A stretch of 37,677 bases of DNA from Deltaproteobacteria bacterium. GTDB lineage: Bacteria > Desulfobacterota > Binatia > Binatales > Binataceae. Under the pieces are notes generated by a model. It searched no databases. It was given only the letters and a program-made list of their open reading frames with translations, and was not told the origin of the DNA. Made by a program: the position numbers and the translations under genes. Shown piece by piece: positions 927-29,568 of the stretch. The DNA lies in the NCBI GenBank assembly GCA_021799495.1, contig JAJZAI010000035.1, positions 1-37,677 on the forward strand, in the 5' to 3' direction. Within the stretch, counting starts at the first letter, position 1, and every line of letters begins with the position of its first letter.

Positions 927-2042
927 TCAGCCCGGCCGGGCCGCCTCCGCGCCGGCGCCGTTCAACCGCCGATCCTGAAAATGCGGCAGGACTTCCTCGG
1001 CCAGCAGCCGCATCGATTTCAGCCACGGCGCCGGATCGTCGGCGTAGTCGAAACCGAACAGCAACAGCGTGCCGAAACCGCCCAGTTCCTCGTACATTTC
1101 GCCGAGCTTGCGCGTGACCGTCCGCGGCGAACCGACCAGCCATCCGTGATCGACCAGATATTCCGGCGTCACGTCCGAGTCGGGAATTTTTTCGTCGGGC
1201 TTGAGGAATTTGGTGAACTGGAAGTCGGCGAACAGCGGCAGCAGATACTCGCGCATCATGCGGCCCATCGCGCCCTTGACGCATCCGCGATAGGCCTCGT
1301 CGTCGGTATCGGCGACGAAGATTTCGCGCACGATTCGCCATTCGGAGCGGTCGGGCGTGCGTCCCGTCCGGCGCGCCCCCTCGACCACCGCGTCCCAATG
1401 GCTCGCGACGTAGGCGGTGCTCAGGTTGAGGCTGAGCGGAATGAAGCCGCGTTCGCCGGCCAGCTTGAGCGTGTCGGAATTGGGACTGAAACCGGCGATT
1501 CCGATCGGCGGATGAGGCTTCTGAAACGGCTTGAGATGATGCTTTAGTGTGCGCAGCATCGGATTCGGCACGCTGACCTTCCAATACTTGCCGTCGTATT
1601 CGAGACCGCCGTCGCTCGCCCAGGTTTTCAGCATGATATCGAGCGATTCGCGCGTCATGTCGCGGGTCTGGCCGCCGTAGCCGTCAACATGAAAAAGCTG
1701 CCAGTCGCTGGGCAGGCCGCTGGCGCCGATGCCGAGCATGTAGCGGCCCTGCGCCAAATGGTCCATGAAGGCGACCCGGCAGGCCAGCTCGGCGGGATGA
1801 TGATATGGCAGCAGATGCGCTCCGGGCGCGAGCTTGATTCGGCTGGTTTGCATCAGCGCCTGCGCGATCAAAAGGTCCGGCGCCGGATTCGGCTCCCACG
1901 GCGACGTGAAATGCTCGCCGATCCACGCCTCGCTGTAGCCAAGGCGGTCGGCGCTGCGAATAACTTCAAGGTCCCACTCCTGGCCGGCCTTGAAGCCGCG
2001 TTCTGGCGGATGGGAAGGCATCAGGAACACCCCAAGTTTCAT
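927..2042 (-). CDS. LLM-class flavin monooxygenase, diketocamphane/limonene monooxygenase-like
   Basis: A 371-residue luciferase-like monooxygenase (TIM barrel, reduced-flavin dependent, cytoplasmic). It starts MKLGVFLMP. The segment around residues 51-110 (NPAPDLLIAQALMQT, APGAHLLPYHHPAELA, GRYMLGIGA) and the C-terminal VGSPRTVTRKL ... DYADDPAPW segment resemble, from memory, the oxygenase component of 3,6-diketocamphane monooxygenase and LimB more than the F420-type LLMs elsewhere in this window. Those relatives are type II Baeyer-Villiger or epoxidising enzymes that use FMNH2 from a separate reductase. The ATG at 2042 is chosen because AAGGAG lies 8 bases upstream; the frame is open further 5' but would run into the next gene. 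It follows the 6-oxocamphor-hydrolase-like gene on the same strand, so a shared alicyclic substrate is inferred. No flavin reductase gene is nearby. Confidence 0.85.
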   Translation of the reverse strand: MKLGVFLMPSHPPERGFKAGQEWDLEVIRSADRLGYSEAWIGEHFTSPWEPNPAPDLLIAQALMQTSRIKLAPGAHLLPYHHPAELACRVAFMDHLAQGRYMLGIGASGLPSDWQLFHVDGYGGQTRDMTRESLDIMLKTWASDGGLEYDGKYWKVSVPNPMLRTLKHHLKPFQKPHPPIGIAGFSPNSDTLKLAGERGFIPLSLNLSTAYVASHWDAVVEGARRTGRTPDRSEWRIVREIFVADTDDEAYRGCVKGAMGRMMREYLLPLFADFQFTKFLKPDEKIPDSDVTPEYLVDHGWLVGSPRTVTRKLGEMYEELGGFGTLLLFGFDYADDPAPWLKSMRLLAEEVLPHFQDRRLNGAGAEAARPG

Positions 2043-2097
2043 TCCCCGCTCCTTTTGCGCGGCGACCCGTGACCATCCGCCGCTCGCGCCTTTTCTA

Positions 2098-2964
2098 TCA
2101 CGATTTCGACCGTTCGGGTCTATCGCCGGCGAGACGGTCGCGGCCGTCGGTCTTATCGCGCGTGCGCGCGCCCGGCCATGATTGGGCGGCGCCAAGGCCT
2201 TCGAGCGCCAACCCATAGCCAAGATTGTCGAGCATCAGTTTCTTGAGCTGCTGGGTCAGCGCGACGCGCGCGTAGCGGACCGCGAGCGCCGGCTTGATCG
2301 TGATTTGCCGCGCAAGCTCCCAGGCGCGCGCCACCAGCCGATCCTTCGGCATCACCTCGCTCACCACGCCGAGATCGAACGCTTCCTTCGCGGACAGCTT
2401 TTGCCCGGTCAGCAGGAAATAGCGGCCGCGGTTCGGTCCGAGCACGAGCGGCCAAACGACATGCACGCCGTCGCCCGGCACGATTCCGTTGGGAAAGTGC
2501 GGCGCATCCTGGAACGCCGCGTTTTCCGACGCGATCACGATGTCGCAGAGCACGGCGAGTTCCGCGTGAATCAGCGCGGGACCGTTCACCGCGGCGATCA
2601 TCGGAACCTCGATATTGAGATGGTTCATCAGCAGGTATTTGGCGTCGTTGTAGATATGGTCCCACGTCGTCGAGCGGACGCCGGCCGGCTGCGGCGCGCC
2701 GTCGCCCGTGATTTTGACGCCGCGTCCCTGCCCGCCGTCCACCTCGGCGCAGAATGCGTCGCCCGTGCCGGTGATAATCACGCAGCGGTTGTCGTGATCG
2801 CGCGCGACGTCGTTGAACGCGTACGACAATTCCTCGTGCGGACCCATGCCCCATTTCAATTCCCTGTCGTTCGTATGCAGCGTCATCTGCAGGATGCCGT
2901 CGCGCCGCTCCATCCTGATGTGCTTGTAGCGATTTGCGTAATCCTCGAACTTGTAGAGCGCCAT
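2098..2964 (-). CDS. 6-oxocamphor hydrolase-like crotonase-fold C-C hydrolase
   Basis: A 288-residue crotonase-superfamily protein. Residues 6-30 ([15 protein letters not shown]) and the block [14 protein letters not shown] (153-166) match my recollection of Rhodococcus 6-oxocamphor hydrolase. Its catalytic His122, His145, Asp154 and Glu244 align with His133, His156, Asp165 and Glu255 here, with spacings of 23, 9 and 90 residues preserved. That family carries out retro-Claisen cleavage of cyclic beta-diketones without CoA. The start at 2964 ([10 protein letters not shown]) has a GGGAG-type site upstream; an in-frame extension reaching 4002 only lies antisense to the neighbouring CoA-transferase gene and is not real. 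A short C-terminal tail rich in Arg/Asp is unlike the core. It is divergent from the IpdA-like gene at 3133 and probably co-transcribed with the LLM at 927-2042. Substrate unknown. Confidence 0.85.
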
Positions 2965-3132
2965 GTCCGCCTGCTCCCTTCGCGAAATATCGGTTGGCGC
3001 GAGTTTACTAACGGCGGCGCGAAATCTCCAAGCGCCCGATGCGAACGCATTTAGCGCTTGCCGGCGCGCACGGTTTCGGCTCAAACTGGGGCGAATTTGC
3101 GGGCTTGCTGATTCAATTGAAAGGCGGCGGCG

Positions 3133-4011
3133 ATGAACACGCGGCGAAGGGAGCGCATTATCGACGAGGTCGCGGCGGGCGGCTGGATCGAAAACGGCAT
3201 GACCATCGCTATCGGCCAGCCGACCCCGATGGCGCTCGTGCGGCAGATTATCCGCCGGAGAGTCAAAGACCTCACGGTCGTCGACGCCGGCTTCTCGCTG
3301 GACCTGCTGATCGCCGCCGGATGCGTCCGCAAGGTCGTGAGCTACTACGCGGGCGGCGGCTTCGGCTATCCGGTCACGCCGATGTTCCGGCGCGCGGCGG
3401 AGCGCGGCGAAATCGAAGTGTGGGAATGCGAAGAGGGAATCCTGTGCGCGGGCCTGCAGGCCGCCGCCCAGGCGCTGCCGTTCCTGCCGTGGCGCGGCGC
3501 GGTTGGAACGTCGCTGCCCGAGATCAATCCGGACCTGAAGGCGTTCGCCGATCCGATTCGCGGCGAAACGCTGATCGCCGTGCCGCCGATCAAGCCCGAC
3601 GTGGCGATTCTGCATGCCGCGCACGCCGACGCATACGGCAACGTGCGCCATCTGGGCGGCCCCGGATGGATCGATCTGTTCATGTACCGCGCGGCCGATC
3701 GCACGATCGTGCAGGCCGAGCAAATCGTCCCGAACGAGGAGATTCGCGCGAATCCGTGGGCCACGACGATCGCCGCGGCGGACGCGATCGTGCGCGCGCC
3801 CTTCGGCGCCCATCCGTTTTACTCGCGCGGCTTCCACGTGCAGGACAACGAGCATTTGAAGGCCTACGCCGACGCCGCGCAAAGCGCCGCCGGCGGCGAT
3901 CGCAAGGCGCTCGACGGCTTCCTCGACCGTTACTGCCGCGAGCCGGCGACTCACGCCGATTATCTCGAGCGAATCGGAATCAGGCGGCTGCTTGGCCTGC
4001 ACGAATACTAA
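3133..4011 (+). CDS. CoA-transferase family subunit A, IpdA-like
   Basis: 292 residues, family I CoA-transferase alpha fold (glutaconate CoA-transferase A/IpdA type). Visible features include the [29 protein letters not shown] segment (in pieces, residues 74-102) and [15 protein letters not shown] near 161-175, which is typical of the family. In Mycobacterium, IpdAB is not a transferase but a hydrolase that opens the last steroid ring; an IpdA Glu is catalytic there, and Glu100/Glu101 here are candidates (inference). The ATG at 3133 has AAGGCGG just upstream. The partner subunit is at 4725, after an intervening membrane protein gene. The C-terminus ([13 protein letters not shown]) is the usual family ending. 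Confidence 0.85.
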
Positions 4012-4061: not shown

Positions 4062-4709
4062 GTGGACAAGCATAATTCAGCCATGGCGCCAGTCTCCGCC
4101 GGTTCGCCCCGGCAAGGCAGCATCGCCACCAATTTCGGCGCGCTCGGATGGATCGTGTACTCGGCGCTGAGCATCCATGGATGGTGGATCGGCGGCGCGC
4201 TCGCCGGGCTCGCGGTGTTCGCGGCGATTCTCGCGCACGAATACAGCAGGGACGCGGTGAAGCTGATGGATTGCGTGGCGGCGGCGTTTTTCGCGTTCGC
4301 TGCGATCGTCACGGCGCTCGCCGGTCCGTGGCTGTTCCTGCGCTACAACATCTTGATGGTCTGGGGCGTTTTCGCGGTCGTGGCGTGGATCACCATTTTG
4401 ATCGGACGGCCGTTCACGCTTCAGTACGCGTATGAGCAGGCGCCGCCTGAAATCTGGGACCATCCGCTGTTCAGGCGGCTCAATGTGTTTCTGACTCTGG
4501 TCTGGTGCGGAATTTTAAGCGTCAACACGTTGTTCGGCTTCGCGGCGTTTCTGACCGGCCGGATTATCTCGCTCGGCCTGCTGATTCCGCTGGCGATTTT
4601 TATCGCCGGCCTCGTGTTCAGCCGGCTCTATCCGAAGCGGTTCGATGCGCAATTCGCGGCGGCCGCCGCTGCCGCGCCGGAGCCGTCACGCCATCTCAAC
4701 CCGCGTTAG
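4062..4709 (+). CDS. Polytopic membrane protein between the CoA-transferase subunits
   Basis: 215 residues from a GTG at 4062, or 208 from the in-frame ATG at 4083. A GAAAGGA stretch 13-14 bases before the GTG mildly favours it. There are about six hydrophobic segments (roughly residues 26-58 as two, 68-88, 92-112, 144-166, 170-190), and between segments four and five lies a conserved-looking loop, [22 protein letters not shown] do not recognise a named family; the loop is reminiscent of small septation-protein-A-like membrane proteins. It sits 50 bases after the A subunit and 15 bases before the B subunit, so it is almost surely co-transcribed with them. A role in substrate entry or membrane tethering is speculation. 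Confidence 0.75.
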
Positions 4710-4724
4710 CCTGGGGATTCCACG

Positions 4725-5513
4725 ATGAACGAAAAATACTCGATCCCGGAACTGATGGCGGTGTTTCTCGCGCGCCAGCTCAACGACGGCGAGGTCCTGC
4801 GCGTCGGCGTCGCTTCGCCGGTGCCCGAAGCCGCGGTGCGGATGGCGCATCTGACGCACGGCCCGAATATGGAGCTGGTCTTGCTGGGCGCGCGCATGAA
4901 CGTCGCCCATCTGGAGACGATTCCGATGCCGGCCTACGGATGGGACCGCCGCGTCGTGCGCTGGGCCGAATCGTACAGCGACACCGGGCATCGCTTCGAC
5001 CGCGTGAAAGACTGGAGCAACCACGTTTTCTTCATCGGCGGCGTGCAGGTGGACGCCTATGGCAATACGAACCTGATCGGCGTCGGAAAAGATTACCGCA
5101 AGCTCAGGTTCCGCGGTCCCGGTTCGGTCGGCACGCCCACCTTGAGCACGCACGTCGGACGCTATTACATCGTTTTGAACAATCACAATCCGCGCGTGCT
5201 GGTCGAAAAATGCGACTATATCAGCGCCTTCGGATATGGCCGCGGCGGCGCGGACGCGCGTGCGAAGTTGGGAATTCCGGGCGGCGGGCCGCGGCTCTGC
5301 GTCACGCCGATGTGCGTTTTCGACTTTGACGAGGGCGCGAGCCGGATGCGCCTCGCCTCGGTGCATCCGGGAGTGACGCCCGAAGATGTTCGGAGCGCGA
5401 CCGGTTTCGAGCTGGAAATTCCCGAACATGTTCCGGCCACGCCGCCGCCCTCGGACGAGGAGTTGGCGACCCTTCGCACCCGCGTCGATTTGGCCGGACG
5501 GCTGCGGCGCTGA
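4725..5513 (+). CDS. CoA-transferase family subunit B, IpdB-like
   Basis: 262 residues, the beta partner of the family I CoA-transferase-like pair. Family marks include FFIGGVQVDAYGN (102-114), GGGGP-like loops and CVTPMCVFDF near the C-terminal third. At the place where true transferases carry the thioester-forming Glu (an E-S-G type motif after the first beta strands), this protein reads LVLLGARM (51-58), with no Glu. That loss is what distinguishes IpdB-like ring hydrolases from CoA-transferases (family knowledge from memory). The pair is therefore more likely to hydrolyse a C-C bond in a CoA-linked cyclic diketone than to move CoA. The start ATG at 4725 follows the membrane protein stop by 15 bases. 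Confidence 0.85.
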   Translation: MNEKYSIPELMAVFLARQLNDGEVLRVGVASPVPEAAVRMAHLTHGPNMELVLLGARMNVAHLETIPMPAYGWDRRVVRWAESYSDTGHRFDRVKDWSNHVFFIGGVQVDAYGNTNLIGVGKDYRKLRFRGPGSVGTPTLSTHVGRYYIVLNNHNPRVLVEKCDYISAFGYGRGGADARAKLGIPGGGPRLCVTPMCVFDFDEGASRMRLASVHPGVTPEDVRSATGFELEIPEHVPATPPPSDEELATLRTRVDLAGRLRR

Positions 5514-5525
5514 CGCGGCTTCGCG

Positions 5526-6266
5526 CTATCCCGGCACGTGCACGAAAACCGCGTGCCAGTAGGCGCGAAACCACGGCTGCGTGTTGCGCATCCCATACAC
5601 GCTGCCGATTACGTGCATCCCGTCGGGCTCTATCTGGCATTGCAGCTTGGTGATTTCATCCACCGGAAAGGTCAACCCGCTGAAATAACCGCGGCTGTGA
5701 TACTCGTCAAAATGCAGCAGCGCGCGCATCGTGGCGTAGGTCCGGCCGTCCGTCGAGATCACATCCATCGTTCCCTGCGCATTCGTGATCATGCGGTTGC
5801 GCCGGATGCCGGCCTCCGTGAATGTCATTTCAAACGGGCCATATCCGACGCGCTTGTAGCACATCCGATAGGTCTTGGGCGTCCAGTAACCGATCGGCGG
5901 CGCGCCCGGTAATCGTTCGATCGAATCGAGCACCGAAACCTCGCCCTCCCAGCATCCGCGAAACACCGCGGGCAATATCGGTTGCGCCGGCGGCGCGACC
6001 GCCTCCGGTGGCGTAGGAGGCGGGGGCGGGGGTGGAATCGGAGTCGGCGCCGGCGTCGGCTGCACCGGGACCGTCACGACATTGTGTTGCGGCGGCGTCG
6101 GCCGGGGCGTGGGACGGGGCCGGTAAGCCGGCGTCGGCTGGTTTTGCAATTCCGGAGCCGGAATCACGAACGAGTTCTGTGCGTACGCCGCCGTCGCGCA
6201 ATATCCCAAAATGGCGACAGTCAACCAAATCAGGCGCCGTCCGAAAGCCGATGAAATCCTTTTCAT
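5526..6266 (-). CDS. Secreted proline-rich hypothetical protein
   Basis: 246 residues with a clear N-terminal signal peptide (KR-rich start, hydrophobic core to about residue 24, likely cut after AYA at residue 29). Residues 33-100 are a low-complexity Pro/Thr/Gln linker with eight or more consecutive prolines. Residues 101-246 form a compact domain beginning VFRGCWEGEV and containing several aromatic and Cys residues. I do not recognise the domain. It converges with the IpdB-like gene, stopping 12 bases from it, and diverges from the SDR gene at 6358. Periplasmic or cell-surface location is inferred from the signal peptide; nothing ties it to the ring-cleavage genes except position. Confidence 0.75.
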   Translation of the reverse strand: MKRISSAFGRRLIWLTVAILGYCATAAYAQNSFVIPAPELQNQPTPAYRPRPTPRPTPPQHNVVTVPVQPTPAPTPIPPPPPPPTPPEAVAPPAQPILPAVFRGCWEGEVSVLDSIERLPGAPPIGYWTPKTYRMCYKRVGYGPFEMTFTEAGIRRNRMITNAQGTMDVISTDGRTYATMRALLHFDEYHSRGYFSGLTFPVDEITKLQCQIEPDGMHVIGSVYGMRNTQPWFRAYWHAVFVHVPG

Positions 6267-6357
6267 TCGCGAAAATTAAATGTTATTCGATTGCCGTAGA
6301 TAATTGCAGCATGATCGGCGCCGCCGAGCCACGGCGCCGCGAGGAAGGGAGATTATC

Positions 6358-7113
6358 GTGAGACTCGCCAACAAAATCGCGGTCGTAACCGGCGCCGGCT
6401 CCGGGATGGGCAAGGCCGCCGCCATGCTTTTCGCCAGGGAAGGCGCGCGCGTCGCCGCCGCCGATATCAACGAAGCGCAGGTCAAAGAGACCGCGGCCGA
6501 GATCGGCGCCGCGGGCGGCCATGCGATCGCGATTCGCGCCGACGTTTCAAAAAGCGAAGACGCCCGCCGCATGATCGACGAAACCGTCGCGAAATTCGGC
6601 CCGCCGAACATCGTGTATAACAACGCCGGCATCGAGGGCGATTCGAATTACGTCGCCAACATGACCGAAGAGCAGTTCGACCGCGTGATCGCGATCAACC
6701 TGCGCGGCGTATTCCTCGGCATGAAGTACGCGCTGCCGCACATGGTCAAAGCGGGCGGCGGCTCGATCATCAATCAGGCCTCGATCGCCGGGATGGTCGC
6801 GATCAAGGGCGGCGCCGCCTATTCGGCTTCCAAGGCCGGCGTGATCGCGCTCACCCGCGTCGCGGCGCTCGAATACGGCCGTTACAATATCCGCGTTAAC
6901 GCCATCTGCCCGGGCGCGATCGAAACGCCGATGGCCCAGCGGATACGCAAAGGCGAACCGCCGAAACAGCACGCTCTCAACCGCATCTCGGTGTTCGGCA
7001 GGATGGCCGAGGCGGACGAAATCGCGAAAGTCGCCCTGTTTCTGGCGAGCGACGACGCGTCGTTCGCGACCGGCGCGCCGTTCGTGATCGACGGCGGCTG
7101 GACCATAAGCTGA
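6358..7113 (+). CDS. SDR-family NAD(P)-dependent dehydrogenase
   Basis: 251 residues, a classical short-chain dehydrogenase/reductase. The nucleotide motif TGAGSGMG is at 11-18, NNAG at 88-91, catalytic Ser at 142, and YSASK (Tyr155, Lys159) is intact. PG and ET residues after strand 6 are in the usual place, and the C-terminal TGAPFVIDGGW is canonical. The GTG at 6358 is chosen because GGAAGGGAG lies 7-15 bases upstream and the protein then begins right at the first beta strand; the frame is open back to 6304 but lacks such support. It probably oxidises an alcohol or reduces a ketone for the pathway; an alcohol dehydrogenase step before retro-Claisen cleavage is a plausible inference. The LLM at 7151 follows 37 bases later. 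Confidence 0.9.
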   Translation: MRLANKIAVVTGAGSGMGKAAAMLFAREGARVAAADINEAQVKETAAEIGAAGGHAIAIRADVSKSEDARRMIDETVAKFGPPNIVYNNAGIEGDSNYVANMTEEQFDRVIAINLRGVFLGMKYALPHMVKAGGGSIINQASIAGMVAIKGGAAYSASKAGVIALTRVAALEYGRYNIRVNAICPGAIETPMAQRIRKGEPPKQHALNRISVFGRMAEADEIAKVALFLASDDASFATGAPFVIDGGWTIS

Positions 7114-7150: not shown

Positions 7151-8530
7151 ATGAAGACAATTCATCTCAACGCCTTCAATCAATGTTGCGCGGCGCTGCA
7201 ATCGTTCGGCCAGTTCCGCAATCCGCGCGATCGCACGTCGCAGGATTACAAGCGCCTGGGCCATTGGGTCGAACTGGCGCGGATGCTTGACGAGGCCGGC
7301 TTCGATTCGCTCTTTTTTGCCGACGTCCACGGCGTTTACGACATTTACAAAGGCAACGCCGAGACGGGCGTGCGTCACGCCGTACAGTTCCCCGGCAACG
7401 ATCCGACGGTGCTCTTTCCGGCGCTCGCGATGGCGACGCGGCGGCTCGGCTTTATCGCCACTTACAGCACTACTTACTATCCGCCGTTTCATACCGCGAA
7501 ACTGTTCTCGTCGCTCGATCACTTCACCGGCGGGCGCGTCGGCTGGAATATAGTCACTTCATATCTCGAAAGCGCCGCGCGCAACGGGTTGGGCGATCGC
7601 CTGCCTCACGACGAACGCTACGAGCGCGCCGAAGAGTACATGGAGGTGGTGTATAAACTCTGGGAGGCGAGCTGGGACGACGGCGCGATGGCGCGCGACG
7701 GCGCGCGCGATATGCATATCGATCCCGCGCGCGTCCATCCGATCGATTATCGCGGACGCTACTATTCCGTCGCCGGTCCGCATATGTGCGAGCCGTCTCC
7801 GCAGCGTACGCCCTTTCTGCTGCAGGCGGGGCAATCGGGCCGCGGCGTGCGTTTCGGCGCGCGCCACGGCGAGGCTATTTTCGTCACCTACCCGAACGTC
7901 GAGGCGGCGCGTCCCCGCGTCGCCCGCATCCGCGCCGCCGCCGCGGCCGAAGGCCGGGATCCGCGCCACCTCAAGCTGCTGGGCGGCCTTGCCGTGATCG
8001 TCGCTGAAACCGACGAAGAAGCCCGCGCGAAGGAAGCGCGGCTCCGTTCGTACGCCAGTCCGGAAGGCGGCCTTGCGCTGTTCGGCGGATGGACCGGCAT
8101 CGACCTTTCGCAATTCAGGGACGACGATCGCCTTGACCAGCTCGACTCCGAAGGCATCAAGGCGGCGGCGCGATGGTTCACCGCGGCCCATCCCGGCCGC
8201 ATCGCAACGCTTGCCGACGCGCGCGAGGAAATGAAACTTGCGAGCCTGATTCCGCTCGCCGTCGGCCGTCCCGAACGGGTCGCCGACGAAATCGAACGCT
8301 GGGCCGACGAGGCCGGCCTCGACGGCATCAACCTTGTGCCGATTTATCAGCCCGGAAGCTTCACCGATTTCATCGAACTTGTCGTGCCCGAATTGCGGCG
8401 CCGCGGCCGACTTCCAGAGCCGGTCCGCGATCTTACGCTGCGGGAAAGTTTCTTTGGCGCGGGCCATGCGCGCCTCGCCGCGGACCATCCGGGATGGCGC
8501 CTCGCGGGCGTCCAGCCGCCCGGTAAATAG
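7151..8530 (+). CDS. NtaA/SnaA/DszA-type FMN-dependent monooxygenase
   Basis: 459 residues, the long LLM type. It begins MKTIHLNAFNQCC and has the family blocks YYPPFHTAKLFSSLDHFTGGRVGWN (around 115-140, shown in part), NWGLG-like YLESAARN, the YERAEEYMEV segment, and PFLLQAGQSGRG near 222-233. Members (nitrilotriacetate, dibenzothiophene-sulfone and pristinamycin-synthase-like enzymes) use FMNH2 from a separate reductase to cleave C-N or C-S bonds or hydroxylate; the substrate cannot be predicted. It shares the strand with the SDR 37 bases upstream and is probably the distal gene of that unit. No good ribosome site precedes the ATG, which suggests coupling to upstream translation or a weak start. 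Confidence 0.9.
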   Translation: MKTIHLNAFNQCCAALQSFGQFRNPRDRTSQDYKRLGHWVELARMLDEAGFDSLFFADVHGVYDIYKGNAETGVRHAVQFPGNDPTVLFPALAMATRRLGFIATYSTTYYPPFHTAKLFSSLDHFTGGRVGWNIVTSYLESAARNGLGDRLPHDERYERAEEYMEVVYKLWEASWDDGAMARDGARDMHIDPARVHPIDYRGRYYSVAGPHMCEPSPQRTPFLLQAGQSGRGVRFGARHGEAIFVTYPNVEAARPRVARIRAAAAAEGRDPRHLKLLGGLAVIVAETDEEARAKEARLRSYASPEGGLALFGGWTGIDLSQFRDDDRLDQLDSEGIKAAARWFTAAHPGRIATLADAREEMKLASLIPLAVGRPERVADEIERWADEAGLDGINLVPIYQPGSFTDFIELVVPELRRRGRLPEPVRDLTLRESFFGAGHARLAADHPGWRLAGVQPPGK

Positions 8531-13628: not shown

Positions 13629-14234
13629 TCAAAAACCCAAGATTGTGGCGACGAATCGAGTCCGCGCGTAGAATGCGCGGCTTTTGCTCCCATGTCCCGG
13701 CCCCTTTGTTCGCGGTTGAACAAGCACACCCATCGCCCCGGTCAATTCGTCGAAGCCTTTCGTTGCAATTGTCATTCGAACAGATTCGTAATCCGCTTTG
13801 ACCTGATTTAGGATATTCGGATCATCGAGGTTAAACGTTGAGACACGCACCAGCAGACTTCGCTCTTCCTTTTGCGATTCAAAGACTCGCGCGCACACGA
13901 CCGCCTTTCGTAACTTGTTGAACAGGTGGCTTTGTTCAAACGGAGTCTGTAGCACGTTGTAGGCGTCGATCATCGTGATCGCCATCGTCTCCTTCACTTG
14001 CAAATCGCCCCTGGAGTTTCGTTTCAGCGGAACGACCTTCAGTTCCCACGATCCGAAGTTTGGCGATTGAGCAGAGTTGATGGGCAATCCCAGATAGCGC
14101 TCCAGAACATGGCCCGCCCACCCTTTGTTCTTCTTCCCGCCTCGCCAAACAGTTACCTGATACTTGCCTGCCAGCGCTCGGAGGTCATGGCCTTCGAGTT
14201 CCTTCAGCTTCGCAACTGCTTGCTCGCGTTCCAT
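13629..14234 (-). CDS. MutH/Sau3AI-like type II restriction endonuclease
   Basis: 201 residues. It matches the MutH/Sau3AI fold: NKGWAGHVLERYLGL (36-50, aligning with MutH around its Glu56), SPNFGSWELKVVPL (57-70, the catalytic E-x-K with Glu64 and Lys66), FEQSHLFNKLRK (99-110), and a C-terminal KSRAFYARTRFVATIL like the MutH end (FYLKKNFTSALLA). The first catalytic acid, Asp70 of MutH, is Asn59 here, so activity may be lost or the residue may differ in this subfamily. It begins 8 bases after the methylase stop and has no clear ribosome site, so translation is probably coupled. With a DpnA-type methylase the expected target is GATC (inference). Lower GC than the surrounding genes. Confidence 0.85.
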   Translation of the reverse strand: MEREQAVAKLKELEGHDLRALAGKYQVTVWRGGKKNKGWAGHVLERYLGLPINSAQSPNFGSWELKVVPLKRNSRGDLQVKETMAITMIDAYNVLQTPFEQSHLFNKLRKAVVCARVFESQKEERSLLVRVSTFNLDDPNILNQVKADYESVRMTIATKGFDELTGAMGVLVQPRTKGPGHGSKSRAFYARTRFVATILGF

Positions 14235-14242
14235 AACGGCAT

Positions 14243-15271
14243 TCAGAGAATCGACGCTGATGCCTTTGGTTTTTGCGCAAACAGATCTTGGGATTCTTGG
14301 TTCTCTGCCGTGACCCTAGCCATCGATAACGCGATATGATCCTCATCCGCTTCGATACCTACGCAGTGTCGCCCATTACGAATCGCTGCAATCGCCGTCG
14401 TGCCCCCACCGATAAATGGGTCCAGCACAACGTCACCTTTGTTCGTTGAGGCGAGCAAACAGCGCTCGACGAGGGCGACAGGCTTCTGAGTCGGGTGCTT
14501 GCCGCACGATTTCTCATCACCACCCGGCGAGGCGATCGTCCAGACGGTTTTCATCTGCTTGCCGCGGTTGATGTGGCGCATGAGGTCGTAATTGAAGCAG
14601 TGCTTGCTCTTCTCATTTTTGGCCGCCCAGAGGACGGTCTCAGTTGAGTGGGTGAAGTAGCGGCAGGAGAGGTTTGGCGGCGGGTTGGGTTTTTCCCAAG
14701 TGATGTCGTTGAGAATCTTGAAGCCAAGCTGCTGCATCGCATAGCCGATGGAAAAGATGACGTGTAGCGTGCCGCTGACCCAGATGGTGCCGTTGGGTTT
14801 GAGCACGCGCTGGCAGCGGCGTAGCCATTCGAGGTTAAACTCGTGATTAAGTTCGGGTCCGCGCGATTTGTCCCAATCGCCCTTGTCCACCTTCACCATC
14901 TTACCAGCGTGGCAGGTGATGCCTCCGTTGGAGAGGAAATAAGGTGGATCGGCAAAGATGCAGTCGAAACGGCCGTCGGGATATTTCGCGGCAATAGCGT
15001 CGAGGAGTTCGAGGCAGTTGCCGTGGTATATCCACACGCCGCGGGCATCGTCACGGTAGGCGAGACGCGGAGGAGGGAGCGCAGCCCGCTCCGAATGCCC
15101 GAGTGACGGGACGTCGTCCTTTGGTTGGACGCTGCCATCTTCGCGAAGAACGAAGGACGCCGTGGCAACCGGCACGGCGTCTGAATCGCCAAACGGAGCC
15201 CCGTTCTCGGCGGCCGGAGGCGGTGTTGAGCAGTGACCACGCTGCTTTTGCTGTTTAAGTTTCTTCGCCAT
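14243..15271 (-). CDS. DpnA-like N6-adenine DNA methyltransferase (beta class)
   Basis: 342 residues. The core from about residue 78 (GVWIYHGNCLELLDAI) runs through ADPPYFLSNGGITC (motif IV, DPPY at 108-111), WVSGTLHVI, WEKPNPPPNLSCRYFTHSTE, HPTQKP and DPFIGGGTT (motif I, near residue 290). Order DPPY before FxGxG makes it a beta-class enzyme. The PPYFLSNGG and CRYFTHSTE blocks match what I recall of DpnA (M2.DpnII), which methylates adenine in GATC. About 75 N-terminal residues before the core are extra and low in conservation-like features, so the true start could be later. Together with the MutH-like gene 8 bases downstream it forms a restriction-modification unit, or a surviving methylase if the nuclease is dead. 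Confidence 0.9.
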   Translation of the reverse strand: MAKKLKQQKQRGHCSTPPPAAENGAPFGDSDAVPVATASFVLREDGSVQPKDDVPSLGHSERAALPPPRLAYRDDARGVWIYHGNCLELLDAIAAKYPDGRFDCIFADPPYFLSNGGITCHAGKMVKVDKGDWDKSRGPELNHEFNLEWLRRCQRVLKPNGTIWVSGTLHVIFSIGYAMQQLGFKILNDITWEKPNPPPNLSCRYFTHSTETVLWAAKNEKSKHCFNYDLMRHINRGKQMKTVWTIASPGGDEKSCGKHPTQKPVALVERCLLASTNKGDVVLDPFIGGGTTAIAAIRNGRHCVGIEADEDHIALSMARVTAENQESQDLFAQKPKASASIL

Positions 15272-17509: not shown

Positions 17510-18361
17510 ATGGCAACTTTTGGCGTAATGATGTTCCCGACCGATTATGCGGTCCAGCCGGCCGAGCTGGCCCGGGCCGTCGAGGAGCGCGGCCTCGATT
17601 CATTGTTCTTTCCTGAGCATACGCATATTCCAACGAGCCGTAAGTCGCCATGGCCGGGCGGCGGCGAACTCCCGATGGAGTACTCGCACACGCACGACCA
17701 GTTCGTCGCGCTGACCGCCGCGGCGATAGTGACCAAGCGGATCAAGCTCGGCACCGGCATCTGTCTGGTGATCGAACGCGACCCGATTCTGCTCGCAAAA
17801 GAAGCGGCGTCGCTCGATTTTATCTCCGGCGGCCGGCTGATCCTTGGAATCGGCGGCGGATGGAATGCCGAAGAGATGGAAAATCACGGGACCAACTTCA
17901 AATCACGATGGAAAATCCTGCGCGAGCGGATTCTTGCGATACGCGCGATATGGTCGAAAGAAGCCGCCGAATTCCATGGGGAATTCGTCAATTTCGATCC
18001 GATTTGGAGCTATCCGAAGCCGGTTCAGGCGGGCGGGCCGCCGATTCTGCTCGGCTCGGAAGCGAAACGCGCGCCGGAACGAGTCGTCGATTATTGCGAC
18101 GGGTGGATGCCGATCAATCGCAAGCCTGAACAGCTTGCCGAAGGCGTAAAGGCGCTACGTGAGGCGGCGAATCGCGCCGGACGACGCTTTGAAACGATCC
18201 AGCTCGGACTGTTCGCGGCGCCAGGCAAGGAAGATGCGGCGCGGCGCGTGATGGAGATGGGCTTTACTCATCTTATTTTTCCCTTGCCGCCGGCGAAGGC
18301 CGACAAGGTGATGCCGCTATTGGATGCTTACGCGACGTTAAGCGAGAAATTGCGGAAATAA
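17510..18361 (+). CDS. LLM-class (probably F420-dependent) oxidoreductase
   Basis: 283 residues, short luciferase-like TIM barrel without large insertions. Marks: FGVMMFPTDYAVQPAELA start, FFPEHTHIP near 32-40, KRIKLGTGICLV (75-86), GGRLILGIGGGWNAEEM (107-123), PPILLGS and a final FPLPPAK. This layout matches the F420-dependent LLM branch (TIGR03619-like) rather than the FMN-type at 927 or 7151; F420 use is inference. AAGGAAGTGA precedes the ATG. It is monocistronic as far as can be seen; the 127-base gap before it and the hairpin after it isolate it. Confidence 0.88.
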   Translation: MATFGVMMFPTDYAVQPAELARAVEERGLDSLFFPEHTHIPTSRKSPWPGGGELPMEYSHTHDQFVALTAAAIVTKRIKLGTGICLVIERDPILLAKEAASLDFISGGRLILGIGGGWNAEEMENHGTNFKSRWKILRERILAIRAIWSKEAAEFHGEFVNFDPIWSYPKPVQAGGPPILLGSEAKRAPERVVDYCDGWMPINRKPEQLAEGVKALREAANRAGRRFETIQLGLFAAPGKEDAARRVMEMGFTHLIFPLPPAKADKVMPLLDAYATLSEKLRK

Positions 18362-19863: not shown

Positions 19864-20643
19864 TTAATCTTTGAATCGCACCGAGTAGGCGCGACATATC
19901 CGATCGATCATCCGGGCGTATTCCGCATCCACGTCAATACCCAACGTGTTCGTACGTTCAATCCGCGGCGGATTAACGTTATCGACGAACACAGGCACGA
20001 GCAGCACGAAATCATATCCCTTCACGTGAGTCTGTCCGATCGGACGAGTTGGTAATGAGCGGAACTTCTCGATGGTTTTCTGCGCATCACGAGGATCATT
20101 CTCGCTAATCGCGAATTGAAATTCATCCCATAGCGTCAGATCGCCTGATGAAAGCCGCGGCAACACATAATTAGCGAATTTCTCGGTGTCTTTACGGTAA
20201 TGTTTTTTGACTTGATCGGCGACGTTAAGCACTCGCGTTGCCACGCCAACGATTACCGTAGCCACCAGAACCGCTTCAGACTTGACGCTGTGGATCACCT
20301 GCAGTGCGTCGTTGAGATCGTCATATCGCGCGTCAACGTTGCGATGCGCCGTCCAGACGGATTTATTCTCAACGCAGATTCTGAGTTTCCGCAAGTCCGG
20401 CTTCCCGTCGCCGGCGGCCTCTCCCATGAGGAGATCAATTTTACGGCCACGCGCTCCGGGTGTTTTGGAGTTCAACCATGTCCGGATCTGCCCTGAGTCA
20501 ATATCGGCGCGCAGCGTTCCACAATTTTCCTCAAGGTCGCGAACGATGCCCTGGCTCGCCAAATCGGAATGAATCTGCCGACGTTGATTATGATATCGTT
20601 CGCCGGCGATACGGTCGACCACCGAATCAAACGGCGTGCTCAT
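19864..20643 (-). CDS. Putative type II restriction endonuclease paired with the gamma-class methylase
   Basis: 259 residues, no family I can name. A PD-(D/E)xK-like core is plausible: Asp70 in GRKIDLLMG followed by LRICVENKSVW (Glu92-Asn-Lys94). ENKS after a hydrophobic strand is a classical nuclease signature. The start ATG overlaps the methylase stop by 4 bases (ATGA), so the two are translationally coupled. Position, size and motif make restriction endonuclease the best call; target unknown. GC content is clearly lower than the catabolic genes on either side. The upstream gap 19671-19863 shows no gene. Confidence 0.7.
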   Translation of the reverse strand: MSTPFDSVVDRIAGERYHNQRRQIHSDLASQGIVRDLEENCGTLRADIDSGQIRTWLNSKTPGARGRKIDLLMGEAAGDGKPDLRKLRICVENKSVWTAHRNVDARYDDLNDALQVIHSVKSEAVLVATVIVGVATRVLNVADQVKKHYRKDTEKFANYVLPRLSSGDLTLWDEFQFAISENDPRDAQKTIEKFRSLPTRPIGQTHVKGYDFVLLVPVFVDNVNPPRIERTNTLGIDVDAEYARMIDRICRAYSVRFKD

Positions 20644-22079
20644 CGCATGAAATCGAGCGAACCGGACGTACCGCGGTGAGACCGACGATCAAGAGCCTTG
20701 TTCCCGGACATCGCCGGAAACGTATCAGTCCCACTATTTAGCCGGGCGGCAATTTCCGCCGGGATTGGCAGCCGGCTTAAAATGCGGCTTTGGAGACGAA
20801 GGAAATCGCCAGCCGCCCGTTGACAATTGGCGTGGAGCCATGCGGTCGAAAGGCCGGAATTGAGGAATTCACAAAGGCCATCCACGACCGCCGGATTTCG
20901 AGGCACAATATAATAGACCGAGTGTCTGGGAACTATTTGACCGCTCCGATCGATCCAAAAACGCGGAGATGCAACGATATCTTTGCACAGAATCTTTGGA
21001 TTCAAGATATCCCGCAAGGGCGGCGTCTCGTGAAATGCGTACCACGGTTTTCTGCGAACGCACGTTCTCGCAACAAGTTTTTGGGCAATCCCGTCCTGTC
21101 GAAGGTAGAATCCGAGAGAACCCAGCCTTGATTCATTAATCAGGCGGCCGTCGCTTGAATATGGAACAAGCATCGAGCATTGAGCGGCAAGACGCGGATT
21201 TCCATCTCCTAATTCCCGACCAGCTATCGTCGGATATGCAAAGGGCCTGAGCGAGCCGTCGATCTTCTCATTTCTCAAAACAAATACTTCGTCCGCTCCA
21301 GTCGCAACGCCCGCGCTGATTCGAAGACAGAAATCGCCAAGAGTTGAATCCGATTCCGGCTGGCTTTCGCCGGCGATTAAAGGCATCCAGGACTGTCCAT
21401 CGCCGCAAAGCGCAATATATTTTATCGCGCCGTCCCGCCGGATCACTTTCGTATGGCCGGAATACCGGCGCCTGGAAACGGTGGTCACCGTGGGATAGGT
21501 AAGCAACGGTTCAAATGTCGTTTCATCCACCAAGTCGATTTCTTCAACGTCGAATCGATTTAGTAAAATTCGCAGCGGATTCGCAGTATCAACATATAAA
21601 AATTTCTCGGGCGTGATAAAGACTAATCGGCCGCCCTCGTTCAAGAGGCGAAGCGCCTGTTCAAAAAACAGCAGATAGAGATCGAATCGGCCGCGCGCGG
21701 TTGAAAAGCGGGTGCGATAAAGCTGTTTTTCAGCCTCGGACAATTCCAAAATGGACACATACGGAGGATTGCCGACGATGAAGTCAAAAGAATCATCACA
21801 GGGATCGGCGAGAAAATCCGCATTTCTAATCTGAATTTCAGGAATTCCGCCGAATTCGCGCTCCGCACGGCGCCGTCTCCGGCTATCCGACTCCACTCCG
21901 ACTATACGGGGAAGCGGTCCGCCATTTCGATCGCGCCACCGGACGAGGCCGCGGATAAAGGCGCCTTCGCCGCATCCGGGGTCGAGAACTGTAGTCTTCG
22001 ACGAAGGCCGCCGGTCGCGGAACAGGCGCTCAACCATCCGATCGACGACAAAATCAGGCGTGGGAACGAATCCCTTCAC
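20640..22079 (-). CDS. Gamma-class N6-adenine DNA methyltransferase (TaqI/Eco57I type)
   Basis: 479 residues. Motif I LDPGCGEGA at 32-40, an acidic residue in VGVESD at 60-65, NADFL at 86-90 and catalytic NPPY at 104-107 give the gamma-class order. LLNEGGRLVFITPEKFL follows, and the C-terminal half (about 240-450) has the IxxGVATGADEVFVL and LLNSxLS-like pattern of TaqI-type target-recognition domains. GTG at 22079 with GAGGG 7 bases upstream is the start; the protein then opens KGFVPTPDFVVDRM, the usual beginning for this class. The nuclease gene follows with a 4-base overlap. Unrelated to the beta-class methylase at 14243, so this is an independent system. Confidence 0.88.
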   Translation of the reverse strand: MKGFVPTPDFVVDRMVERLFRDRRPSSKTTVLDPGCGEGAFIRGLVRWRDRNGGPLPRIVGVESDSRRRRRAEREFGGIPEIQIRNADFLADPCDDSFDFIVGNPPYVSILELSEAEKQLYRTRFSTARGRFDLYLLFFEQALRLLNEGGRLVFITPEKFLYVDTANPLRILLNRFDVEEIDLVDETTFEPLLTYPTVTTVSRRRYSGHTKVIRRDGAIKYIALCGDGQSWMPLIAGESQPESDSTLGDFCLRISAGVATGADEVFVLRNEKIDGSLRPFAYPTIAGRELGDGNPRLAAQCSMLVPYSSDGRLINESRLGSLGFYLRQDGIAQKLVARTCVRRKPWYAFHETPPLRDILNPKILCKDIVASPRFWIDRSGQIVPRHSVYYIVPRNPAVVDGLCEFLNSGLSTAWLHANCQRAAGDFLRLQSRILSRLPIPAEIAARLNSGTDTFPAMSGNKALDRRSHRGTSGSLDFMR

Positions 22080-22897: not shown

Positions 22898-23223
22898 AAT
22901 CGCGATTCCCGCCGAATCAATTCAGGCCGCATCGCGCGGCATCCGGTTCGTGGCGCGCCGAAGATGCGGCGGCGGCAAATAATTGCCGCGCTCGATAATC
23001 CGCCGCGGCGGCGCGCCGCGAATTCCAGCCAGCCCAGGCGCGACGCCCGGCCTCGAGCGGAAATTGAGCAAACGGCGTGCCGCGCGCTGCCGCGCCGCGC
23101 GGCTGGCCGGCGAGATTACATGGCGCTGGCGTTTTCGTATCGGTGCGGCTATTCGTAGCGGCGAAACGGCGGACGGCCCGGCGAATCCGCGGCGGCGTCC
23201 GAATCGGGAGAGGAGGCGACTCG

Positions 23224-24273
23224 ATGAACTTCGGCCTGTTGATGTCCTTTCGCAATTCCTCGCGCGACGAGCTTTCCTATTCGGAACTCTATCGCAAGCA
23301 TGTCGATCTTGCGGTCGAAGCCGAGGACCTGGGCTTCGACACCATCTGGCTCACCGAGCATCATTTCGTCAAAGACGGTTATTCGCCCGCGATGATGCCG
23401 CTGGCGGCCGCGATCGCGGCGCGCACCAAACGAATCCGGATCGGCACGTTCGTGCTGCTGATGCCGCTGCATCATCCGATACACGTCGCGGAGCAGGCGG
23501 CGACGATCGACGCGCTATCCAACGGGCGGTTCGATTTGGGCGTCGGGCAGGGCTACGTGCCGAGCGAATTCGCGGCGTTCAATATTCCGCGCGCGGAACG
23601 GAGCCTGCGCCTGCGCGAGGGAGTCGAAATCGTGCGGCGGCTGTTCACCGAGGACAACGTCACCTACGAAGGACAGCACTATACGGTGCGCAACGCGACG
23701 CTCTATCCCAAACCGACGCAGCAGCCGCATCCTCCTATCTGGATCGGCGCGCGCACGCGGCCGGCGACGGAGCGGGCCGCCCGCAACGGCTATCATCTGG
23801 CGGGCACCGGATCGCGCCAGGCCGAGCTTTATCGCGCGGCGCTGAAGGCGGCGGGGCGGAATCCCGACGATTTCAATATCGCGCAGTTGCGCTTCGGCTA
23901 CGTCGCGGTCAAACGGGAAAAGGCGTGGGACGAATGCGAATTCGGCCTGCACTACCTGATGACGCGCTACGGCCAGTGGATCGCCGAGGCGAACGACGTC
24001 AAGGGCGACGAAAATTATCGCGCGATTCCGCCGCTGGGCGAATTCCGCCGGCGGGCGGCGCTGGGCGATTTCGACCTGATGGTCGGCACGCCGGACGACG
24101 CGATCGCGCATCTGGAGAGCATCCAGTCGTTCACGACCCATCTGGCGCTGGGACTGGCGCTGCCGGGAATCGAGCCGAAGAAGCTGCGCGCGTCGATGAA
24201 ACTGTTCGCGGACAAGGTGATTCCGCACTTCCGCAAAAAATCGCGAGCGGCGCGCGGCAAGTCCGCCGCGTAG
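23224..24273 (+). CDS. LLM-class flavin-dependent monooxygenase
   Basis: 349 residues, bacterial-luciferase alpha-like. The start MNFGLLMSFRN at 23224 has GGGAGAGGAGG upstream; an open frame extends 5' to 23077 but is unsupported. Family blocks: DTIWLTEHHFVKDGYSPAM (shown in part), RIRIGTFVLLMPLHHPIHVAEQ, NGRFDLGVGQGYVPSEF, YPKPTQQPHPPIWIGA. TEHHF and LPLHHP-type segments are the standard luciferase-like LLM pattern, with FMN as the likely cofactor. No associated reductase. The C-terminal tail is Lys/Arg-rich. Ends at a terminator hairpin shared with the convergent GST gene. Confidence 0.9.
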   Translation: MNFGLLMSFRNSSRDELSYSELYRKHVDLAVEAEDLGFDTIWLTEHHFVKDGYSPAMMPLAAAIAARTKRIRIGTFVLLMPLHHPIHVAEQAATIDALSNGRFDLGVGQGYVPSEFAAFNIPRAERSLRLREGVEIVRRLFTEDNVTYEGQHYTVRNATLYPKPTQQPHPPIWIGARTRPATERAARNGYHLAGTGSRQAELYRAALKAAGRNPDDFNIAQLRFGYVAVKREKAWDECEFGLHYLMTRYGQWIAEANDVKGDENYRAIPPLGEFRRRAALGDFDLMVGTPDDAIAHLESIQSFTTHLALGLALPGIEPKKLRASMKLFADKVIPHFRKKSRAARGKSAA

Positions 24274-25079: not shown

Positions 25080-25373
25080 TCAGTCGCCGTCTTCGGCCGC
25101 GCGCGCGCGTTGCATTTGATCGATATGATCGGCGACGCGATTGATTTCGAGGGTCGCATCGTCAACCGCCTTCTGCGCCTGATCCGCGGCGAGCTGCGCC
25201 TTGATCGCGGCCTGACGCGCCCGCTCGGCCGCGGCCTGCGCCTGTTCGGCGCGTTGCTGCGCCGCGGCGGCCTGGGCTTTGGCTTGCGCGATCTGCGCCG
25301 CCGACGGCCCGCATCCGCCGGCGGCGATCGCGAGCGCGATCGCCGCCGGCGCGAGCAAGCGGCCGCGAATCAC
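25080..25373 (-). CDS. Small coiled-coil lipoprotein (Lpp-like)
   Basis: 97 residues from GTG 25373, whose GTGA overlaps the stop of the upstream LLM by 4 bases. Signal peptide VIRGRLLAPAAIALAIAAGG followed by Cys21 gives a lipobox-like site (AAGGC, with a slightly unusual Gly-Gly). Residues 26-95 are Ala/Gln/Glu-rich heptad-type sequence, a continuous coiled coil like murein lipoprotein or alanine-zipper proteins. Expected to be anchored in the outer membrane facing the periplasm. Translational coupling to a cytoplasmic monooxygenase is odd. A longer frame from 25700 overlapping the LLM is not supported. Confidence 0.75.
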   Translation of the reverse strand: MIRGRLLAPAAIALAIAAGGCGPSAAQIAQAKAQAAAAQQRAEQAQAAAERARQAAIKAQLAADQAQKAVDDATLEINRVADHIDQMQRARAAEDGD

Positions 25374-26245
25374 TTCGGCGCGAGCGCTTCCATCGTGCGC
25401 TCGTCGGGCAGCGTCTCGCTGTCCACCTTGAGCGGCAGGATGCAGACGTGGGTCGCGCCGGCCTTCAGATGGGCGTCGATACGGTCGCGGATTTTCGTCT
25501 CCGTGCCCCACGCGACGATCGCATCGACCAGCGCGTCGCTGCAGCCGTTGGCGAAATCCTCGTCCTTCCAGCCCAGGTTCTTCAGATTGTTGGTGTAGTT
25601 GGGCAGGCGCGGCACGTAGGTCTTCATGTACGTGCGCGCGGCCGCGCGGGCTTTCGCCGCGTCGCTCTCGAGCAGGACGGCTTGCGCGGCGCAAATCCAC
25701 GGCTTCGGCCCGATCGCCGCGCGCACTTTCGCGGTATGCTCCGGCGGCACAAAATAGGTATGCGTGCCGTTGGTCTCCGCGGCCGCCAGCGCGAGCATCT
25801 TCGGATGCAGCGCCGCGATCACGATCGGCACGTCCTCTTTCGGCGCCGGCGCCCGGTACAGCGCCGACTTCATCTTCGGCAGATAGTCCTTCATATAGCT
25901 GTAGGGCTTGTCATACGAATGGCCGCGCAGGTTCGCGACCAGCGGCTTGTGGCTTACGCCGATGCCGAGCAGGAAGCGTCCGTTGGACAATTCGCCGACG
26001 GTCTTGGACGCCGCCGACATCGTGATCGGATCGCGCGCCCAGATATTCGCGATGCCGGTCGCGAAGATCAGGCGTTCGGTATGCGCCGCAAGATAGCCGG
26101 CATGCGCGAACGGCTCGCGGCCGACCGCCTCCGGAATCCACAATGCGCTATAGCCGAACTTCTCGACCTTGCGCGCGAACGCCGCCGTCTCCGGCGCCTT
26201 CATTCCGTCAAGAAAAAACCATACTCCGTGTTTGCCGATTTCCAT
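25370..26245 (-). CDS. LLM-class (probably F420-dependent) oxidoreductase
   Basis: 291 residues, TIGR03620-like layout: MEIGKHGVWFFLDGM start, EKFGYSALWIPEAVGREPF (30-48), RLIFATGIANIWARDP (58-73), NGRFLLGIGVSHKPLV (87-102). SHKP and the NIWARDP block are typical of this LLM branch, thought to use F420 (family inference). GGAGGG lies 14 bases upstream of the ATG, rather far. It diverges from the tandem LLM pair at 26363 across a 117-base gap and overlaps the lipoprotein start by 4 bases downstream. Confidence 0.88.
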   Translation of the reverse strand: MEIGKHGVWFFLDGMKAPETAAFARKVEKFGYSALWIPEAVGREPFAHAGYLAAHTERLIFATGIANIWARDPITMSAASKTVGELSNGRFLLGIGVSHKPLVANLRGHSYDKPYSYMKDYLPKMKSALYRAPAPKEDVPIVIAALHPKMLALAAAETNGTHTYFVPPEHTAKVRAAIGPKPWICAAQAVLLESDAAKARAAARTYMKTYVPRLPNYTNNLKNLGWKDEDFANGCSDALVDAIVAWGTETKIRDRIDAHLKAGATHVCILPLKVDSETLPDERTMEALAPK

Positions 26246-26362: not shown

Positions 26363-27223
26363 ATGAAAATCGGCCTGATGTTCGTAAATTCCGGTCCGTT
26401 CAGCAATCCCGACCTGCTCGCCCATCTGGCGGTCACGGCCGAAAAATGCGGCGTCGAATCGCTTTGGACGGTCGAGCACGTCGTCATTCCACAGGGCTAC
26501 CAATCGCCCTATCCATATTCTAAGAGCGGCAAAATCCCCGGCGGCGAGGACGTTTCGATTCCCGATCCGCTGATTCCGCTCGGTTTTATCGCGGCGGTCA
26601 CTTCGAAGGTGAAGCTCGCGACCGGCATCCTGATTCTCCCGCAGCGCCATCCGCTCTACACCGCCAAGGAAGTCGCCACGCTCGACGTGCTTTCGCACGG
26701 CCGCATGATCCTCGGCATCGGCTCGGGATGGCTCAAGGAGGAATTCGACGCGCTCGGCCTGGATTTCCACAAACGCGGCGCGCTGACCGACGAGGCGATT
26801 CAGGCGATGCGCGCGGTCTGGAATGAGAACCCGTCGAGCTATCGCGGCAAACATTTCAGTTTCGGACCGCTGATGAGCTTTCCCAAGCCGATCCAGAAAG
26901 GCGGCGTGCCGATTCACGTCGGCGGCCATTCGCCCGCAGCCGCGCGCCGGGCCGGCAAATACGGCGACGGCTTCTTCCCGGCGATCGGCGATCACGCGAA
27001 GCTCAAGGAGCTGTTCGGCCTCATGCGCGACTCGGCGAAGCAGGCCGGCCGCAATCCCGACGCGATCGAACTTTCGTGCATGGGCCGCGCCGACGCCGAC
27101 GCGCTCAAGTCGTATCGCGACATGGGGATTTCGCGCGCGGTCCTTGCGCCGCCGGCATTCGACAAGGACGGCCTGACGCGCGGACTCGAAAAACTCGCCA
27201 ACGACGTCATCGCGAAGCTCTGA
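26363..27223 (+). CDS. LLM-class F420-type oxidoreductase, tandem copy 1
   Basis: 286 residues from ATG 26363, with GAGGAG upstream. Marks: MKIGLMFVNSGPFSNPD, SLWTVEHVVIPQGY (residues 33-46), VKLATGILILPQRHPLYTAKE, GRMILGIGSGWLKEEFDALG, VPIHVGGHSPAAARRAGKYGDGFFP. This is the TIGR03619-like branch, with the conserved GGHS phosphate-binding segment. Its neighbour at 27265 has the same blocks almost word for word, so the two arose by tandem duplication. F420 use is family inference; no F420 biosynthesis gene is in view. A long frame running 5' to 25448 is antisense to the preceding LLM and is rejected. Confidence 0.92.
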   Translation: MKIGLMFVNSGPFSNPDLLAHLAVTAEKCGVESLWTVEHVVIPQGYQSPYPYSKSGKIPGGEDVSIPDPLIPLGFIAAVTSKVKLATGILILPQRHPLYTAKEVATLDVLSHGRMILGIGSGWLKEEFDALGLDFHKRGALTDEAIQAMRAVWNENPSSYRGKHFSFGPLMSFPKPIQKGGVPIHVGGHSPAAARRAGKYGDGFFPAIGDHAKLKELFGLMRDSAKQAGRNPDAIELSCMGRADADALKSYRDMGISRAVLAPPAFDKDGLTRGLEKLANDVIAKL

Positions 27224-29372: not shown

Positions 29373-29529
29373 CGCTCGATCGCTCCTTCAGATCTATGCT
29401 GTGCGCTCCCCGCGCCCCGCCATCTTCGCCGAACAAAACACAAAATTCCAATCGCTCTTTCGAGAGCCTTGAACGATTAAGTCAGCGTTGAGAAGCCTGT
29501 GGAGAGTGTGGAGAAAAGAGAGTCGACCG

Positions 29530-29568
29530 TCTTCGTCAAATATTCGCCGTGCTGGTATAATTTCAGCA
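29530..29568 (+). promoter_or_regulatory. Promoter giving a leaderless OLD-nuclease transcript
   Basis: A consensus -10, TATAAT, lies at 29556-29561, with TTCGTC 18 bp upstream as a weak -35. Six bases separate the -10 from the ATG at 29568, so transcription would start at or next to the start codon. No ribosome site precedes that ATG, in agreement with a leaderless message. The 29373-29529 stretch otherwise shows no gene. Confidence 0.6.

Follow-up and report, generated by a model that had tools for sequence, protein, structure and literature searches.

What does a locus degrade in which a relative of 6-oxocamphor hydrolase is encoded next to a relative of diketocamphane monooxygenase? The initial annotation placed such a crotonase and a luciferase-like monooxygenase (LLM) adjacent on one strand and read them as a union of the two bacterial routes of camphor ring opening. 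We analysed the whole stretch of DNA (the window, a complete contig of 37,677 bp), which belongs to a 3.43-Mb metagenome-assembled genome, about 98% complete by estimate, of an uncultured soil bacterium of Candidatus Binatia. Both genes were found side by side on the minus strand. We give a probability of roughly 0.55 to the reading that the locus consists of two divergent catabolic transcription units for an alicyclic, steroid- or terpenoid-like compound, held by one Candidatus Binatia family (Table 1).

Table 1. Features of the locus, with position in the window, strand and basis of assignment
Feature	Position	Strand	Basis
Ltp2-like thiolase-fold aldolase, 5' part, cut by contig end	1..817	-	full-length orthologue L046
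Luciferase-like monooxygenase (LLM), 371 aa	927..2042	-	phmmer, profile, tree, active-site residues
OCH/beta-diketone-hydrolase-type crotonase, 288 aa	2098..2964	-	phmmer, tree, catalytic residues, model
Divergent intergenic region, 168 bp, between the two transcription units	2965..3132	.	conserved arrangement
IpdA-like alpha subunit of an IpdAB-type ring hydrolase, CoA-transferase fold	3133..4011	+	best PDB match 6con
Membrane protein without assigned function, between the IpdA and IpdB genes	4062..4709	+	position conserved in relatives
IpdB-like beta subunit without the catalytic Glu of CoA transferases	4725..5513	+	PDB 1poi_B, 6con_B
Exported-looking protein of no known family	5526..6266	-	signal-peptide-like N-terminus
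SDR dehydrogenase, possibly associated	6352..7113	+	NCBIfam/Pfam SDR; nearby in several relatives
NtaA/DmoA-family FMN monooxygenase, possibly associated	7151..8530	+	TIGR03860 at 487 bits, over the cut-off; close by in relatives of genus g1

On the minus strand the crotonase gene is transcribed first, followed after a gap of 55 nt by the LLM gene and then by the start of a thiolase-fold gene that runs into the contig end. The plus-strand unit opens with the IpdA-like gene, and the membrane protein gene, for whose product no Pfam match was obtained, separates it from the IpdB-like gene. GC content at the third codon position, the order of the orthologues and the catalytic motifs rule out that the crotonase and LLM genes are chance reading frames; orthologues reach 98% identity with the order unchanged. 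The intergenic region, whose divergent layout is conserved and which holds blocks of identical bases across six relatives, likely contains the promoters of both units. As to the surroundings described by the initial annotation, the IpdAB-like and SDR genes are indeed adjacent, but the P450 genes lie about 30 kb away and are 'nearby' only in a loose sense.

Using phmmer against the PDB, the best solved relatives of the crotonase were 6-oxocamphor hydrolase (OCH; 1o8u, E value 1e-79) and beta-diketone hydrolase (ABDH; 2j5g, 5e-74), with a drop to 1e-20 at the next structure. In a 60-row tree, built with a quick method and SH-aLRT support without bootstrap, the protein fell inside the OCH/ABDH clade and apart from ordinary enoyl-CoA hydratases (SH-aLRT 100), as the initial annotation had supposed. 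It shares about 50% identity with the Rhodococcus OCH (1o8u/1szo) and the Anabaena beta-diketone hydrolase (2j5g/2j5s), and all five catalytic residues are present, H43, H133, H156, D165 and E255 corresponding to OCH His45, His122, His145, Asp154 and Glu244. The AlphaFold model (pLDDT 81) reached a Z score of 38.1 to 1szo (Z 38 for OCH, 1szo/1o8u, and 36 for ABDH; rmsd 1.4–1.6 Å), versus 29 for the best ordinary crotonase.

At the position of OCH His122 (here His133), 47 of 48 clade members have His and all 12 ordinary crotonases have Gly, a residue that we assign to the oxyanion hole for the thioester. Since His replaces this Gly, the chemistry would be independent of CoA, and the protein is predicted from its sequence to be a CoA-independent retro-Claisen C–C hydrolase. 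However, the likeness to the two solved hydrolases has limits. OCH pairs with Rhodococcus sp. 008 in the 60-row tree, whereas the window protein lies outside the OCH sub-clade proper, in a separate group of 17 rows, and its gene neighbours are others. Because its loop 78–95, modelled with low confidence, is about 13 residues longer than the OCH loop holding F82–H88 and unlike it, the substrate pocket probably differs from that of OCH.

Alternatively, the crotonase could act on a CoA thioester rather than on a free diketone and, like EchA20, serve as the ring hydrolase that partners IpdAB. EchA20 is also a crotonase and catalyses the step before IpdAB when steroids are degraded, so that the pairing of families is alike, but it was reported to cluster with MenB (PMC5380842), whereas the window protein belongs to the CoA-independent OCH/ABDH clade and carries the clade's His in place of Gly. 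We consider action on a thioester unlikely, though worth keeping in mind.

The best solved relative of the LLM was 3,6-diketocamphane monooxygenase (CamE36, a DKCMO; 4uwm, 2e-72), the next structure scoring 5e-19 and the best F420 enzyme 2e-7. Its family profile gave 301 bits to 3,6-diketocamphane monooxygenase and 120 to the structure ranked second, while no F420 enzyme exceeded 52. In a 44-row tree it formed a clade (support 98/94) with DKCMO and a Rhodococcus opacus PD630 protein annotated as limonene monooxygenase. Equivalents of DKCMO His46, Glu52 and Ala77 are present: His44 and Glu50 match the first two, which are cavity residues common to both DKCMOs (PMC4631483), and Glu50 together with the Ala75–His76 pair matches the DKCMO group. 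The His is common in all LLMs, while the Glu is more specific. The LLM is nevertheless no CamE36 orthologue, since the closest companions of DKCMO in the tree are proteins from ES2-1 and S. xenophagum and the window LLM stands in a sister group. The FMN-ring-binding His10 and Ser44 of CamE36 are replaced by Met8 and Gly42, two positions that are also not kept in 2,5-DKCMO (PMC4631483).

The LLM is closer to the limonene-annotated PD630 protein (44% identity) than to DKCMO (39.5%), so its sequence is compatible with Baeyer–Villiger oxygenation and with epoxidation, the reaction of its LimB relatives. It might therefore be a LimB-type alkene epoxidase, or another oxygenase, that prepares a terpenoid for other enzymes to open. 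Both relatives share one supported clade with it, but its neighbours would act on ketones and diketones and fit a ketone oxygenase at least as well. On balance an epoxidase seems improbable, if still a serious contender.

The neighbouring genes point towards steroid-type chemistry. A full-length orthologue (L046) of the truncated thiolase-fold protein had Ltp2 as best PDB match (6ok1, 5e-78), and the catalytic tyrosines of Ltp2, Tyr294 and Tyr344 (PMC12329534), are present in 10 of 10 full-length copies, the window copy being cut by the contig end. In relatives, a DUF35 gene with the zinc-ribbon and OB-fold domains of ChsH2 stands directly downstream. Judged by sequence, such a pair marks a side-chain aldolase rather than a thiolase. 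Compared to the Ltp2–ChsH2(DUF35) steroid side-chain aldolase, it differs in the motif (YEHF here, YDHF there), and its neighbours are not those of the known steroid side-chain operon. In the divergent unit, the IpdA-like protein is closest to IpdA of M. tuberculosis (6con, 2e-34). Its partner is nearer to glutaconate CoA-transferase B (1poi_B, 1e-28) than to IpdB (6con_B, 4e-21), but it and its relatives have Leu at the position of GctB Glu54, and IpdB likewise lacks the CoA-transferase glutamate (PMC5380842).

We then asked how far the arrangement is conserved. Of 41 genomes from one Candidatus Binatia family, 12, distributed over four genera (g1, g5, g7 and g13), have the order crotonase–LLM–aldolase–DUF35, with the end of the unit cut by the contig edge in the window and in one relative (G001). 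The adjacency noted in the initial annotation is conserved. Ten of these 12 genomes carry the IpdAB unit beside it in divergent orientation; in the two genomes of g5 that unit is found at another site, again followed by its usual downstream gene. An IpdA orthologue (at least 75% identity) occurs in all 12 operon genomes versus one of the 29 other family genomes (Fisher p = 2e-9, without correction for shared ancestry); in that one the match stands at the start of a contig. Since IpdA is retained in the two genomes where it is not adjacent, the link between operon and IpdAB is not merely physical. The exported-looking protein (5526..6266) adjoins the ipdAB-like pair even where that pair has relocated (L207, L208).

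Beyond the family, no further case of the operon was found in a phylum-wide sample and 80 public crotonase loci, about half of them OCH-type. Within 6 kb on each side, where the contig allowed, none of these 80 loci had a DKCMO-like LLM beside an OCH relative, except in Binatia family members; a few have distant LLMs of 26–30% identity. Could the genes thus be unrelated catabolic genes that merely stand side by side in one LLM-rich lineage? With 58 LLM-like matches in a 3.43-Mb genome, an LLM neighbour is likely to occur anyway, and LLM orthologues in other genera (g2, g4, g15 and g17) do not lie in such an operon. But the four-gene order persists in four genera, with short intergenic gaps, even where protein identity falls to about 80%, and it co-occurs with IpdAB even where the two are unlinked. 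Mere juxtaposition is therefore quite unlikely.

A Rhodococcus oxybenzonivorans plasmid was considered as a second instance of the system and rejected, as the thiolase encoded there carries a YDCY motif and the crotonase shares no more than about 35% identity. There (L066, 10825–16131), the thiolase-like gene, an OB-fold gene and an LLM gene near a flavin reductase gene are interspersed with transposases and IS elements. Further paralogues of the OCH clade in Binatia were seen at three loci (L192, 6045–10370, G012:C20; L190, 6068–9138; L191, 5566–7149). One has an acyl-CoA dehydrogenase and two LLMs as neighbours, and one of these LLMs is 39% identical to the window LLM; the others occur in pairs, in tandem or a short distance apart, with a family III CoA-transferase, an amidase or an acyl-CoA dehydrogenase in the vicinity.

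The 58 matches amount to an extreme expansion of LLMs, several of which pass F420-family cut-offs, and the contig itself carries at least seven LLM genes (927–2042, 7151–8530, 17510–18361, 23077–24273, 25373–26245, 26372–27223 and 27271–28122). A similar expansion is described for SAR202, where many flavin monooxygenase paralogues are proposed to attack alicyclic compounds (PMC5395668); SAR202 belongs to another phylum, and the accessible text describes no such conserved operon. The genome also encodes an F420 ligase, so F420 may be available to other LLM paralogues. Hence the LLM of the locus might be an F420-dependent oxidoreductase without oxygen insertion, as many paralogues may be, the more so as several other window LLMs pass F420-family cut-offs. 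But it scores far under every F420 model cut-off, its Glu50 and Ala75–His76 pair are those of the DKCMO group, and it groups with the FMN-type DKCMO and LimB proteins. Of the five F420-type window LLMs, four fall elsewhere in the tree, while the fifth (25373) sits on a very long branch and its placement is unsure. We regard F420 dependence as very unlikely.

How could the enzymes work together? In its logic, the best reading resembles the final stage of steroid degradation more than it does the camphor routes. The sequences establish the enzyme families, the catalytic residues and a conserved gene order; the following scheme, with its reactions, step order and substrate, is a proposal modelled on steroid HIP degradation. 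The Ltp2-like/DUF35 pair would cleave the side chain of a hydroxyacyl-CoA by a retro-aldol reaction, leaving a ring ketone. Next to a ring ketone the LLM may insert oxygen, with FMNH2 supplied by a flavin reductase whose gene lies outside the locus. The crotonase would act on a cyclic 1,3-diketone that is not a thioester and open a ring by retro-Claisen hydrolysis, and the IpdAB-like enzyme might hydrolyse a remaining ring that bears a CoA thioester. Against the scheme, neither a flavin reductase nor a CoA ligase is encoded inside the conserved block. The LLM differs from CamE36 also in having no flavin reductase gene adjacent; four flavin reductases (PF01613 proteins) are encoded in the genome, none of them in the locus.

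In steroid HIP catabolism, two successive ring openings fall to the crotonase EchA20 and to IpdAB, in this order (PMC5380842). The KstR2/HIP pathway thus likewise has a crotonase and an IpdAB-type enzyme side by side, with a beta subunit lacking the CoA-transferase Glu, but its crotonase belongs to another clade, and the window unit has an LLM and an aldolase. A search for the KshA 9-alpha-hydroxylase (PF19298) yielded no match in the genome; among 14 control genomes a single one gave a match, below cut-off, so that the control is weak. The absence of KshA_C, a marker of the classical (9,10-seco) steroid ring pathway, speaks against that pathway. The proposed LLM step has precedents: an LLM of the Caenibius tardaugens pdc cluster is a type II BVMO acting on the steroid progesterone (PMC12239570), and Sphingobium AntQ-1 is an anthraquinone BVMO encoded next to a hydrolase gene (PMC9836352). 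Both resemble the window LLM as type II BVMO-like ring or ketone oxygenases, but the AntQ-1 neighbour is an alpha/beta hydrolase, not a crotonase, and the accessible parts of the two papers report no IpdAB or Ltp2 for either system.

Does the camphor reading survive? That the locus degrades camphor or a close bicyclic monoterpenoid by Baeyer–Villiger and retro-Claisen routes is suggested by the closest solved relatives of the crotonase and the LLM, both camphor enzymes, but is extremely improbable given that neither protein is an orthologue of a camphor enzyme, that the crotonase loop departs from the OCH F82–H88 loop, that the conserved block holds no camphor-type P450 and ferredoxin pair, and that a Rhodococcus OCH locus differs clearly in having P450, ferredoxin and AMP-ligase genes and no LLM gene. 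To our knowledge, the aldolase/DUF35 pair and IpdAB have no place in the known camphor routes. The actual partners of the pair, the Ltp2-like aldolase, the ChsH2-like DUF35 protein and the IpdAB-like hydrolase, are characteristic of the way steroid side chains and rings are degraded, not of camphor degradation. With LimB-type epoxidation equally open to the LLM, the supposed union of two camphor routes is not supported.

Instead, the two divergent units look like an undescribed pathway for a ring-shaped natural compound, and camphor as that compound is unsupported. Each enzyme comes from a known family, and none is novel in kind. We found no description of the combination, in agreement with the initial annotation: a literature search, which covered few subscription journals and thus weighs little, returned no locus in which a crotonase of the OCH type is joined by an LLM resembling type II BVMOs, nor either of them by Ltp2/DUF35 and IpdAB. 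The Binatota genome survey makes no mention of camphor, terpen, steroid, Baeyer or luciferase (PMC8262859). Binatota are widespread and uncultured, and the conserved C–C-cleaving locus offers a concrete hypothesis on the diet of one family.

Outside the locus, two patches of lower GC content (54–55%; 13629–15271 and 19864–22079) carry a DNA methyltransferase gene beside a MutH/MvaI-like restriction enzyme gene, and an Eco57I/TaqI-type methylase gene. These are probably acquired restriction-modification genes. An OLD-family ATPase with a TOPRIM domain, encoded at 29499–31229 in a patch of 51% GC, possibly serves in phage defence.
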